Source of the DNA: Candidatus Dormiibacterota bacterium
GTDB lineage: Bacteria > Chloroflexota > Dormibacteria > Aeolococcales > Aeolococcaceae
Direction: 5' to 3'
Assembly (NCBI GenBank): GCA_003131685.1
Contig: PKWB01000112.1
Location: forward strand, 179-35,572
Length of the DNA: 35,394 nucleotides
Shown here: positions 9,265-34,687 of the stretch, in pieces
Layout of the letters: every line of letters begins with the position of its first letter
Numbering within the stretch: the stretch's first letter is position 1
Translations under genes and position numbers: made by a program
Notes under the pieces: generated by a model
What the model was told of the DNA's origin: nothing
Seen by the model: the letters and a program-made list of their open reading frames with translations, nothing else
Databases searched by the model: none

Positions 9265-9294
9265 TTGACGCCCCCCCCCGCGCGAGACTAATGT
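9265..9294 (+). promoter_or_regulatory. Putative sigma70-like promoter (TTGACG-18-TAATGT) for leader copy 3 / liv operon
   Basis: TTGACG 9265-9270, TAATGT 9289-9294; predicted TSS near 9301-9303, where the leader begins. Confidence 0.5.
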
Positions 9295-9302
9295 ACGCCC
9301 CG

Positions 9303-9451
9303 GTTGTCCCCAGCGCTCGATCACTGTCCGTACGACAGTGGGGTGCTGAAGTCGGCCGCTACCCCCGGGGAACCTTCCTCAGAGAGCGGGCAGCGGCAGA
9401 ACGAGGCTCTGCCTCATCTAGCTGTCTGGTAGCTGTCTGGAGGAGCTCTGG
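9303..9451 (+). ncRNA. Candidate structured leader, copy 3 (diverged), upstream of liv operon
   Basis: 5' hairpin CACTGT/ACAGTG followed by GGGGTGCTGAAGTCG (compare copy 1 GGGGTGCCGGGAGTCG); ends with GGAGG 8 nt before a GTG; 149 nt = 138 + an 11-nt exact tandem duplication. Confidence 0.45.
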
Positions 9452-9577
9452 GTGATCCGTGTGGTGTCGCAGCCAATGACGGCGGGGCATGAGTGTCGGC
9501 GTTGTCGCTTCGTATGGGGGCCCCGATCCGGCACGTCCACCCACCGTCCGTTACGACCTAGCCGTCGCTTCACCTGA
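9452..9577 (+). CDS. Short ORF (41 aa) after leader copy 3, possibly translationally coupled to livH
   Basis: GTG 8 nt after GGAGG; TGA 9575-9577, 4 nt before livH ATG at 9582, which lacks its own SD. Confidence 0.35.
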   Translation: MIRVVSQPMTAGHECRRCRFVWGPRSGTSTHRPLRPSRRFT

Positions 9578-9581
9578 AATT

Positions 9582-10490
9582 ATGTCCACATTCCTGCCTC
9601 TTTTCATCTTCGGACTGATCGATGGAGCCATCTTCGCGGTGGCAGCGCTCGGCTTCACGCTCCAGTTCGGCATCACCAACGTCGTTAACTTCGCTTACGG
9701 CGAATTCATCACGTTTGGGGCTTACGGAGTCGTCATTGTCAACGCACTCGGCGTCCACATGAGCTTCTGGCCGACTCTCATCGTCGGTGGGCTCTCTGGA
9801 GCCGTCCTCTCCTTCGTTATCGGTCGCTTTCTCTACGGCCCGTTCTTCAAGCGGCGCTCGCAGCTGCTCTTCTCCCTCGTGTTGACATTCGCCGTTTCGC
9901 TGATCCTCTTCAATCTGTACCTCGTGATCTGGGGAAGTGGGTTTCGCGTCCTCGACACGTCGTCGTATCCCGCAGGAAGCGCCGATGTGCACACAGTGGC
10001 AGGCGTCACCGTGACCACCCTGCAGGTGCTGTTCGTCGTGTATGCGGTCATCTGCCTCGTCGGCGCGCACTTGGTGCTGCGGTACACGCGGCTGGGCAAG
10101 TCGATGCGAGCAATCGCCGACAATCGCGACCTGGCGACGGTTTGCGGACTCAACCTTTCCAGAATCACCAATGTCACCTGGTTGATCACAGGTTTTCTCG
10201 CCGGCTCGGCGGGCATCGTGGAAGCCCTTCAGACGACCAGCTTCGCTCCCAACCTCGGCGACACGTTCCTGTACCTCGTGTTTGCATCTGTCGTCCTGGG
10301 GGGAATCGGTCGCCCGGTCGGAGCGGTGCTCGGCGCGGTCATCATCGGCCTGGTCACGCAGCTGTCGGTACCCATCGTTGGATCGGAAGTGTCGCCGGTC
10401 TCCGTGTTCGTTGTCCTGGTGGTGCTGATGCTCTTCCGGCCGCAGGGTCTGTTTGGCTCGACCGGTCGCACCAGCTTCGCCGGAGGGTGA
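9582..10490 (+). CDS. livH: Branched-chain amino acid-type ABC transporter permease
   Basis: MSTFLPLFIFGLIDGAIFAVAALGFTLQFGITNVVNFAYGEFITFGAYG is LivH-like. Confidence 0.88.
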   Translation: MSTFLPLFIFGLIDGAIFAVAALGFTLQFGITNVVNFAYGEFITFGAYGVVIVNALGVHMSFWPTLIVGGLSGAVLSFVIGRFLYGPFFKRRSQLLFSLVLTFAVSLILFNLYLVIWGSGFRVLDTSSYPAGSADVHTVAGVTVTTLQVLFVVYAVICLVGAHLVLRYTRLGKSMRAIADNRDLATVCGLNLSRITNVTWLITGFLAGSAGIVEALQTTSFAPNLGDTFLYLVFASVVLGGIGRPVGAVLGAVIIGLVTQLSVPIVGSEVSPVSVFVVLVVLMLFRPQGLFGSTGRTSFAGG

Positions 10491-16036: not shown

Positions 16037-16174
16037 GTCGACGGCGCCGAGCGACTGCCGAAGGGCAGTGGGGTGCCGGGAGTCGAGCTCAGACCTCGGA
16101 GGTCGCAAACCTCGGAGAGCGGTCGAAGGCACCTAGGGCTCCAGATCCGGGTCAACTCGGCTGGAGGATACCGT
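16037..16174 (+). ncRNA. Candidate SD-sequestering structured leader, copy 1, upstream of sucC-like gene
   Basis: About 80-85% identical by hand to 34501-34638(-), with a 43-nt perfect block (16126-16168). Hairpins ACTGCC-GAAG-GGCAGT, GAGGT-CGCAA-ACCTC and CTCCAG-AT-CCGGG-TCAA-CTCGG-CTGGAG, the last covering SD GGAGG (16163-16167). Confidence 0.75.
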
Positions 16175-17320
16175 GTGGCACAGCTCACGGAGCACCTGTC
16201 AAAGGGGCTGCTCGAGCGCTTTAAGGTTCCGATCGGCACTGGGGAGTTAGTCAACAGCTCCGCATCAGCAAGGGCCGCTGCCGCACGAGCCGCCAGCCCT
16301 GTTGCCGTCAAAGCACAGATACCGGTTGGCTCGCGCGGCAGGGCTGGCGCCATCATTCGCGCTGAGAGCCCCATGGATGCCGGCGCAGCCTTTGACATTG
16401 TTACCGGTATCCGCATGGACGGTCTCCAGGCGCATGAGGCTCGGATCGAGCCGTGGCAACGGATACTCGATGAGCTCTACATGGCTGTCTCATTCGATTC
16501 CACCTTGCAAGCCCCTGTGCTGCTCTTCAACCCCTTTGGCGGCGCCGACTTGGAGTCGCACCCCGAGAGCCTGCGCATCATGGCGATTCCCGTTGATCAC
16601 GAGGTGTCGTTCGCATACGTTCGTGAGCACGCGGACCTGAGTGGACTCGCGTCGGCTGCCACTGACTCGCTGGCTACCATCGCACGCGATCTGATTCACG
16701 CATTCTTCGCGCTCGAGGCGCGCATGATCGAGCTCAACCCACTCGGTCAACTCGAGGATGGTGAGTGGATCGCGCTTGACGCTCGTATCGTCCTCGACGA
16801 CAACGCACTGTTCCGCCATCCAGATCTCCAGGGGCTCGTCGGGGCGATGAGCCCTCGTCGAGCGGAGGACATCGTTCGCGAGACGACGCGACTGGAATTC
16901 GTCCCACTGGACGGGTCCATCGCCGTGATCAGCGGCGGAGCCGGCATGACCATGGCGGTGATGGATCTCATCGCTGATCGAGGCGCTTCAGCCGCGTGCT
17001 TCCTCGACTGCAGCGCCGACGTGACGCCACGGGGATATCGTGCGGCGCTCGATCTTGTCTTGAGCATCCCTCGGATCACGAGCATCCTCGTCAGCGTCTT
17101 CGGCGGTCTGACCCGCGTGGATCGGGTTGCCTCCACATTCATCGATCTCCTCGCCGGCACGCCAGTCGAGCTACCGCTGACATTCCGCCTGATGGGGACG
17201 AATTTGCAGGAAGCGGACGACATCCTGGCAAGCGCGGGGCTCGACAACCATCATGTGCTCGAGGCTGCCGTCGAGGCGGCAGTTCGATCGGGGCAACAAT
17301 CGAGGGAGGGCTCTTCGTGA
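16175..17320 (+). CDS. Succinate/malate-CoA ligase beta subunit-like ATP-grasp protein
   Basis: LLERFKVPIGTG, VAVKAQIPVGSRGRAGAI, MIELNPLG...ALDARIVLDDNALFRHPDL; GTG start 7 nt after GGAGG. Confidence 0.82.
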   Translation: MAQLTEHLSKGLLERFKVPIGTGELVNSSASARAAAARAASPVAVKAQIPVGSRGRAGAIIRAESPMDAGAAFDIVTGIRMDGLQAHEARIEPWQRILDELYMAVSFDSTLQAPVLLFNPFGGADLESHPESLRIMAIPVDHEVSFAYVREHADLSGLASAATDSLATIARDLIHAFFALEARMIELNPLGQLEDGEWIALDARIVLDDNALFRHPDLQGLVGAMSPRRAEDIVRETTRLEFVPLDGSIAVISGGAGMTMAVMDLIADRGASAACFLDCSADVTPRGYRAALDLVLSIPRITSILVSVFGGLTRVDRVASTFIDLLAGTPVELPLTFRLMGTNLQEADDILASAGLDNHHVLEAAVEAAVRSGQQSREGSS

Positions 17321-27440: not shown

Positions 27441-27794
27441 TCACCGGTGCGGCCAATCCGCGGCGGTCAGGATCTCCGCCTGACGGGGAAAGACTTTCGC
27501 CATGAGGACGTGGTGCACCTCCGGGTCTGAGTCGTCACAGCAATCCGAGAGGACCTTGAGCCCGTAGTCACGATCCGCCGCCTCTCTGAGCGTCGAGAGC
27601 ACAACGCCGCTGGTGGCGATGCCGGCAAGCACCAGCGTACTGACGTCGTTGGCTCGGAGCACAACCTCGAGATCGCTCCCCGCGAACGCGCTGACACGTC
27701 GCTCGGTCACGATGATGTCGCCGGACCGCGGGGCGACTGCCGGGACGATCTGCGCGGCCATCACGCCATCGGGCGCCATAGTGAGCAGCCTCAT
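27441..27794 (-). pseudogene. N-terminally truncated isochorismatase-like (cysteine hydrolase) remnant
   Basis: Only the C-terminal part, VAPRSGDIIVTERRVSAFAGSDLEVVLR...AGIATSGVVLSTLREAADRDYGLKVLSDCCDDSDPEVHHVLMAKVFPRQAE; no N-terminal DxQ segment, K->E in the vTKRRvSAF motif. Confidence 0.6.
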
Positions 27795-27829
27795 CTCGGG
27801 TTCGCCGCGCTCCAGACAGCCACTGGCAC

Positions 27830-27967
27830 CTGACTACCTCCACGCGTTCCGAACGACGATGGAGCGTCGGACACCGCCGCCCGGTGGAGAGGAGGGCTCC
27901 TCTGGGGCGGTGGCTTGCTCCCAACACCCACCTGCCGTCAGGCAGTCGTAGAGGTGTCGGCGGCGAC
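27830..27967 (-). ncRNA. Candidate structured leader, copy 4, upstream of isochorismatase-like/MFS operon
   Basis: 138 nt from GTCG to GTG, as in copies 1 and 2; CGACTGCC-TGAC-GGCAG hairpin, GGTGTTGGGAG, AGAGGA-GCCC-TCCTCT hairpin, CTCCA...TGGAGG terminal stem, GGAGG 7 nt before GTG. Confidence 0.6.
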
Positions 27968-27973
27968 CGGACT

Positions 27974-28002
27974 ACTCTACCGTCGGCTCAAGTGGTCGTC
28001 AA
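27974..28002 (-). promoter_or_regulatory. Putative sigma70-like promoter (TTGACG-17-TAGAGT) for leader copy 4
   Basis: Reverse strand TTGACG (28002-27997), TAGAGT (27979-27974); predicted TSS coincides with leader start about 27967. Confidence 0.55.
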
Positions 28003-33315: not shown

Positions 33316-34323
33316 TCAGACGTTGACCGCAACAGCCGCGATCGAACCGATGTCCACGGTGCCGATCTCGCTGAGCACCTCACGAGCGTCCGCCATGTCG
33401 AGCTCCGAAGCGGCGCTGATCGGGGCGCGGACCGGGCCCCCCGCCATTCCCAAGAGCTCGGTGATGTATTTGACGAGGGCGACATTATGCCCACCCCTAT
33501 TGACAAACCGGTTGTGCAGTCGGTTCGCAGCCCAGAGGATGGGTCGTAGTGCAGCCGCTGCATTCTCCACGTTCCCGGCCTTGAGCGCGGATGCGAAGTG
33601 CTCGCAATACGGGAAACGCGTGTTCTGGACGTAGAAGGGCCGCGAACTTCCGAGCAGGACCGGCGGTACGTGCGACGTGCCGAAGGTCGCCAATCCAAAG
33701 AGGGTGTACTCCTCGAGCGGACAGCTGACCACGATGGTCTCGCCGACTGCGGAGAGCATGTCCGCATATCCGCTGAGGCTTCGCGACGCCTCCTTGAGGC
33801 CGCTGAATGTATCGATAGCGGCCATTCGGGTGGCGAGCTGTGGCGTGATGTAGAAGCCCACCTCCGACACCGTCGTGCTGTATGAGCAGATCGCGAGATC
33901 CGAGACTTCTGCGACGCTCTCGAAGTAGCTGAGGACGCCCGCGTCATCTCGGGAACCGTAGTACGGAGGCCACAGCATCAAGGCGTCGGCACCGCTGCGC
34001 TCAGCGGATCGCGCCAGTTCCTGCGAGTCTCTCGCGCATGTGCTGGTCACCCCCACCATTACCTTGAGGCGACCAGCGGCAGCATCAACTACCGTTTCCG
34101 CAATCAGTTTCCTCTCGTCAAGGGTCAGGGTCCAGAACTCCTGATAGTTGGACCCAACGTAGAGTCCGGTGACTCCAGGAATCTGCAGGCTCAGTTCAAC
34201 GTTACGACGCAATCCGTCGACATCAATGGTTCCGTCAGCGCTGTAAGGCGTCGTGACGATCAGCAAGTATCCGGAGATACTGCGCAGCCACGCCTTGGCT
34301 TCCGATCTCGAGTATTCAGCCAC
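33316..34323 (-). CDS. Dihydrodipicolinate synthase/N-acetylneuraminate lyase family aldolase
   Basis: VTTPYSADGTIDVDGLRRNVELSLQIPGVTGLYVGSNYQEFWTLTLDERKLIAETVVDAAAGRLKVMVGV. Confidence 0.85.
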   Translation of the reverse strand: MAEYSRSEAKAWLRSISGYLLIVTTPYSADGTIDVDGLRRNVELSLQIPGVTGLYVGSNYQEFWTLTLDERKLIAETVVDAAAGRLKVMVGVTSTCARDSQELARSAERSGADALMLWPPYYGSRDDAGVLSYFESVAEVSDLAICSYSTTVSEVGFYITPQLATRMAAIDTFSGLKEASRSLSGYADMLSAVGETIVVSCPLEEYTLFGLATFGTSHVPPVLLGSSRPFYVQNTRFPYCEHFASALKAGNVENAAAALRPILWAANRLHNRFVNRGGHNVALVKYITELLGMAGGPVRAPISAASELDMADAREVLSEIGTVDIGSIAAVAVNV

Positions 34324-34368: not shown

Positions 34369-34500
34369 TCAAGTTGCCTCCACTGGTCGACCTGGGTCGA
34401 GTGGCAGCGCCACGGGGTGTGGTCCGGGGGCGCCAGCGCTCACTGGGGCGTTTGAGCGCTCAAGGAGACGATCCAAAACACGCCCTGCCAGTTGCACCAC
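34369..34500 (-). pseudogene. 43-aa ORF resembling the N-terminus of the sucC-like gene at 16175 (remnant)
   Basis: VVQLAGRVLDRLLERSNAPVSAG... versus VAQLTEHLSKGLLERFKVPIGTG...; GTG 7 nt after GGAGG, same geometry as 16175. Confidence 0.5.
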
Positions 34501-34638: not shown

Positions 34639-34687
34639 GTATGTAAAGGATAGGCGTTTCCCGACCGCTTCGCTACTGCGCGTTGAT

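Follow-up and report, generated by a model that had tools for sequence, protein, structure and literature searches.

A candidate family of cis-regulatory leader RNAs private to one catabolic gene cluster of a Dormibacteria genome

Two similar 138-nucleotide (nt) segments, each ending one base before a GTG codon, lie ahead of catabolic genes in a 35,394-nt stretch of contig PKWB01000112.1 from a Candidatus Dormiibacterota bacterium (this whole stretch is called the window below). They raise the question of whether a structured leader RNA, outside the known classes, controls translation of these genes by hiding their Shine-Dalgarno (SD) sequence.

Four leaders at the gene starts of one cluster

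Both 138-nt leaders described in the first-pass annotation were confirmed (copies 1 and 2 below), as were the 43-nt block identical between them and, in each, a GGAGG followed by 7 nt and the GTG. Their identity had been put at 80–85% and is in fact 86–88%, with 120 of 139 aligned columns identical; a blastn alignment that includes about 20 nt upstream matched at 134 of 159 positions (84%, E 2e-45). Two leaders had been claimed, and both are real, but the family has four copies, the other two being diverged members found by a covariance model.

16037 to 16174, plus strand: leader copy 1, 5' of a SucC-like (ATP-grasp_2) gene and directly after the DUF3870 stop codon
34501 to 34638, minus strand: leader copy 2, 5' of a 43-codon open reading frame (ORF) and a DHDPS-like operon
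27830 to 27964, minus strand (covariance-model match 27827 to 27964): leader copy 3, new, 5' of a 12-codon ORF and an isochorismatase-like gene
9306 to 9460, plus strand (covariance-model match 9306 to 9463): leader copy 4, new, 5' of a 38-codon ORF and a LIV-type ABC permease gene

Model R1, built from copies 1 and 2 only, matched copies 3 and 4 at full length in the window with 29.4 and 26.0 bits, the best other match in 1.3 Mb of the same genome scoring 16.2 bits. These diverged copies show 50–64% identity, and blastn of the 3.78-Mb genome bin returned no leader copies beyond 1 and 2. Model R2, built from all four copies, scored them at 149, 142, 117 and 91 bits, which are scores on its own training set, with the next match in the same 1.3 Mb at 15.4. 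A pattern combining the P1a hairpin with GGAGG had exactly four matches in the genome, the four leaders; it gave five single matches in 109 other genomes of the class, and a reversed control gave 13 across 110 genomes. All four leaders are intergenic, lie on the sense strand, run to a GTG and stand upstream of genes of one catabolic cluster.

It is conceivable that the true duplicated leader is limited to copies 1 and 2 and that copies 3 and 4 are chance matches, given that scores of 23–31 bits do arise somewhere across hundreds of genomes (L033, L088). Within this genome, however, the comparison is 26 against 16 bits, and both copies fall in the same 35 kb, intergenic, in sense and ending at a GTG, each with a well-placed promoter. 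We consider chance matching extremely improbable.

27974 to 28002, minus strand: copy 3, sigma-70-like promoter TTGACG-17-TAGAGT, whose end lies 10 nt upstream of leader nucleotide 1, 9/12 matches
9265 to 9294, plus strand: copy 4, sigma-70-like promoter TTGACG-18-TAATGT, whose end lies 12 nt upstream of leader nucleotide 1, 8/12
34647 to 34675, minus strand: copy 2, weak promoter-like site TAGCGA-17-TATCCT, whose end lies 9 nt upstream of leader nucleotide 1, 7/12, alone not significant

At copy 4, an overlapping ACTAAT hexamer with a 16-nt spacer scores 9/12, and 9/12 matches occur in 0.4% of random 80-nt stretches. No promoter could be recognised at copy 1; beginning directly after the DUF3870 stop codon, this copy might be intra-operonic and read from upstream. 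No intrinsic terminator (hairpin plus U run) was found on the leader strand between leader and gene at any of the four loci.

Constraint, covariation and the Shine-Dalgarno hairpin

Differences between copies 1 and 2 avoid the helices (2 of 58 helix positions against 17 of 84 others, Fisher p 0.005). Two single-base indels separate the copies, both in hairpin loops; their effect is that the frame lying open across copy 1 meets a stop codon in copy 2. Third codon positions just downstream match at 6 of 23, a saturated, chance level, whereas the leader itself is 88% identical, so that the leader RNA is constrained as non-coding sequence; the sole alternative that we see is gene conversion restricted to the leader. 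For their composition the leaders have an unremarkable total folding energy (z −0.89 and 0.08 for copies 1 and 2), which on its own proves nothing, and no compensatory double changes separate the two copies. For these two reasons the case for an RNA from copies 1 and 2 alone is suggestive at best.

Covariation among further homologs, which the first-pass annotation had looked to for its structure, was found once copies 3 and 4 were added: across the four sequences, all from one genome and aligned by fitting to the model, a small base for such a measure, 97% of cells were paired and 12 of 29 pairs were doubly changed. None of 500 shuffles scored as high, and slid controls were 37–47% paired. 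This paralog covariation supports three elements, a 5' hairpin (P1/P1a), an internal stem-loop (P2/P3) and the SD hairpin.

16043 to 16077, plus strand: P1/P1a hairpin of copy 1, GGCGCC/GGTGCC closing CTGC/GCAG, paired in 4/4 copies
16139 to 16168, plus strand: SD hairpin of copy 1, CTCCAG-AT-CCGGG-TCAA-CTCGG-CTGGAG-GA

The 5' hairpin aligns nearly gap-free and is the cleanest part of the alignment. Considered by itself, its covariation is modest: it is 100% paired, with three double-change pairs in copies 3 and 4 (replacements of G-C by A-U and of C-G by U-A), a result equalled by 36 of 500 shuffles. One helix of the original proposal did not survive. The outer stem GGTGCC/GGCACC carries no double changes, loses two pairs in copy 4, is mostly wobble in copy 3 and competes with a local hairpin; P1, formed by GGCGCC (leader nucleotides 7–12) and GGTGCC (36–41), takes its place. 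The two pairings are mutually exclusive, since GGTGCC can pair with either GGCGCC or GGCACC. The motif GTCGA-(A/C)GGC(A/G)CC occurs twice in the leader (window positions 16037–16048 and 16122–16133), and either occurrence could pair with the GGTGCC segment. A two-state arrangement of these sites is possible judging by the letters, and covariation does not support it.

Could the repeats act as DNA, with the RNA structure incidental? A mobile repeat or DNA-level operator would also come in several copies with inverted repeats, and the first-pass annotation had named scattered genomic hits as a sign of the former. The matches in the bin are instead exactly four, all in sense at the gene starts of one cluster; several helices carry compensatory changes, which point to pairing and not to a fixed DNA sequence, and conservation extends to the SD and GTG. 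This alternative is accordingly very improbable.

The last stem was proposed to bury the SD in copies 1 and 2, and it does so in the computed folds: the hairpin CTCCAG-AT-CCGGG-TCAA-CTCGG-CTGGAG is identical in both, has a folding energy of −15.3 kcal/mol and leaves GGAG with an unpaired probability of about 0.1 or less. Copy 3 keeps the hairpin with another inner stem (CGTT-CGG-AACG) and has its GGAGG 7 nt before the GTG; here the SD is paired in the covariance-model fold and in the full-leader fold, and a short folding window gives a competing fold. The SD region of copy 4 is rearranged, with about 20 nt inserted and the GGAGG 17 nt upstream of the GTG, so that occlusion is not clean. The SD is thus clearly paired in the default fold of copies 1 and 2, the hairpin is kept in copy 3, and copy 4 is ambiguous. 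Within the rearranged region of copy 4, an 11-nt sequence (TAGCTGTCTGG) is repeated twice in tandem (window 9419–9440, plus strand).

A structured leader of this kind need not switch. It could be one part of a constitutive 5'-UTR module, a duplicated promoter plus an mRNA-stabilising, translation-limiting leader conserved for expression level. P1 lies at the predicted 5' end, as stabilising hairpins do, copies 1 and 2 are clearly one duplicated unit that includes the SucC-like N-terminus, and no alternative (ON) fold has been demonstrated. Against this, structure is kept between copies just 50–64% identical, and a strong SD-burying hairpin before catabolic genes is easiest to understand as one that can be relieved. 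We regard a constitutive module as improbable. That the four copies form a real, constrained leader family is, in our judgement, very likely.

Short ORFs and the catabolic genes

Direct control of the first enzyme gene by the SD would fit copy 1, where the GTG starts the SucC-like gene; in copies 2–4 the GTG opens a short ORF of 43, 12 and 38 codons, respectively, and it is this ORF that the SD would control.

16175 to 17320, plus strand: SucC-like ATP-grasp/CoA-ligase beta subunit, first gene after leader 1, from its GTG
34369 to 34500, minus strand: 43-codon ORF that follows leader 2; codons 1–23 are homologous to the N-terminus of the SucC-like protein
33316 to 34323, minus strand: DHDPS-family gene, first full gene after leader 2, starting at 34323 with its own SD (AAAGGAGG)
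27791 to 27829, minus strand: 12-codon ORF after leader 3, its stop overlapping (ATGA) the ATG of the next gene at 27794
27441 to 27794, minus strand: isochorismatase-like fragment after leader 3, covering profile positions 71–175 of 175, with an MFS gene next
9461 to 9577, plus strand: 38-codon ORF after leader 4, ending 4 nt before the likely permease start ATG at 9582
9582 to 10490, plus strand: LIV-type ABC permease (BPD_transp_2) following leader 4, its start ATG at 9582 lacking an SD

Compared with the SucC-like N-terminus, the 43-codon ORF matches at 16, 17 and 6 of 23 first, second and third codon positions (shuffle p 0.003), and it looks like a relic of a SucC paralog or else a leader peptide that has been kept. 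A likeness between its tail (PVALPL) and the SucC C-terminal PVELPL was rejected as not significant (shuffle p 0.18). The isochorismatase-like ORF, which lacks the N-terminal half, may be a fragment or a remodelled gene. Judging from the layout of the reading frames, translation after leaders 3 and 4 seems to be coupled between the short ORF and the gene that follows; for copy 4, termination-reinitiation coupling is suggested by an ORF that ends 4 nt before a start codon that has no SD. The peptide sequence of the short ORFs is not conserved across the four copies, and conservation lies in the RNA before the ORF.

The gene sets behind the leaders make up a cluster for organic-acid catabolism. 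Leader 4 precedes a LIV-type ABC transporter (from 9582, plus strand); leader 1 precedes SucC/SucD-like, MaoC, TPP-enzyme, RraA-like, PrpD-like and malate-synthase genes (from 16175, plus strand); leader 3 precedes the isochorismatase-like fragment and an MFS transporter (from 27794, minus strand); and leader 2 precedes DHDPS, acyl-CoA dehydrogenase, AMP ligase, DUF6282, IPMDH-like and FAH genes (from 34323, minus strand). A scan of cluster genes between 9489 and 35377 turned up no transcription-factor domain. A second catabolic cluster, without a leader, adjoins the window (L084, C105:35400-55000) and holds DHDPS, SDR, thiolase, ECH and AMP ligase genes, an IclR regulator and another LIV-type transporter.

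Distribution, known systems and a possible role

Rfam 15 (4227 models) gave no match in the window at the gathering cut-off, and permissive Rfam searches round all four copies returned unrelated sub-threshold matches only. The family is known from one genome bin, which is 76% complete. Pattern searches of about 575 other genomes of the phylum and covariance-model searches of 200 turned up no relative, and R1 gave no match at E≤1 in 148 kb from related genomes. The negatives of the R1 genome search are weak, since few candidates were scored per genome and copies 3 and 4 were themselves missed at first. Among relatives of the SucC-like protein, identity did not exceed 38% in the phylum genomes searched or 35% on the plasmids listed, and no leader was found at the loci of those relatives that were examined. 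No second genome with a conserved aptamer core was found, the GTDB-wide scan having used a pattern specific to copies 1 and 2. As no homolog was found in other genomes, the data give no sign that this regulation is old or under selection elsewhere.

Several outside candidates were rejected. Among 61 genomes, blastn returned the two known copies and noise, including a partial match (L005) apparently inside coding sequence. The top R1 matches in 201 genomes were weak or antisense to coding sequence (L033), and R2 on 39 genomes gave three weak matches (L086–L088), of which L088 is antisense to a long ORF. The GTDB-wide scan with the copy-1/2-specific core had one match, in Ozemobacter, and an IMG/VR pattern search also had one; both were judged chance. 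A blast match on an Embleya plasmid looks like part of a coding sequence, and its R2 score was nil.

The closest parallels are orphan riboswitch candidates. The dauA and livJ motifs occur (mostly) in Streptomyces, and livJ precedes LIV-type transporter genes with its SD in an internal bulge of P1 (PMC11109978). Compared by layout only and not by alignment, the leaders described here resemble both in being structured, in lying just 5' of transporter or metabolic genes, in holding the SD in a helix and in their narrow distribution, and they share with livJ a place ahead of LIV-type transporter genes. Unlike in livJ, the SD lies in a separate 3' hairpin, and unlike either motif the family consists of four copies in one cluster of one genome. 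The aceE-II motif, found upstream of aceE only, in Thioalkalivibrio (PMC11109978), resembles the family, in a comparison by description only, as an orphan, genus-restricted leader of a central-carbon operon. In Salmonella, a small intergenic ORF controls a Mg2+ transporter (PMC8092293); copies 3 and 4 likewise place a short ORF ahead of a gene to whose start it appears to be coupled, although here the RNA before the ORF is conserved across the four copies and the peptide is not.

The first-pass reading of a conserved, structured, SD-sequestering leader outside known classes agrees with the lack of an Rfam match, the covarying homologs and the confinement to one cluster. With moderate confidence, we interpret the four elements as a new cluster-private family of cis-regulatory RNAs that controls translation through access to the SD, and we infer that the leaders regulate expression. 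Each would act near the 5' end of an mRNA from the same catabolic cluster. An aptamer-like 5' domain would comprise the P1/P1a hairpin, a partly conserved linker (GGGAGUCG) and the P2/P3 stem-loop, and the hairpin that buries the SD ahead of the GTG would serve as expression platform. Translation would be off in the default fold until a cluster-specific signal, most likely a substrate or intermediate bound by the 5' domain, opened the hairpin. Copy 1 would control translation of the SucC-like gene directly, copies 3 and 4 would act by way of a short ORF, with termination there coupled to the gene that follows, and the path from copy 2 is less clear.

That the signal is a small molecule is our guess, and direct sensing of a metabolite by the leader is a tentative reading. 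A trans-acting protein or sRNA could instead open or lock the SD hairpin with no small-molecule aptamer involved. The same structure and positions would then be expected, the partly conserved single-stranded stretches could form a protein site, and the neighbouring cluster, just outside, has an IclR gene (L084:6357-7181), though its product is of a DNA-binding type. The cluster genes scanned include none recognised as an RNA-binding regulator, however, and a protein site is usually smaller than a 130-nt multi-helix element, and we rate control of this kind as unlikely, if the most serious of the alternatives.

Orphan leader RNAs are usually found through comparison of several species. The present family is visible because four diverged paralogs belong to one pathway in one genome, and since it can be seen through paralogs only, standard pipelines would miss it. 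It may possibly represent a new class of riboswitch confined to one cluster, itself acquired horizontally or evolving fast, whose own RNA regulon stands in for a transcription factor. Such a class, which we put forward with equal reserve, would sense the cluster's substrate or a CoA-ester or organic-acid intermediate and, through the opened SD hairpin, turn on the four mRNAs, partly via the coupled ORFs. The four gene sets (importer, CoA-ligase, hydrolase/MFS and DHDPS/acyl-CoA) limit the candidate ligands to one pathway, and the family suggests that cluster-private RNA regulons exist.
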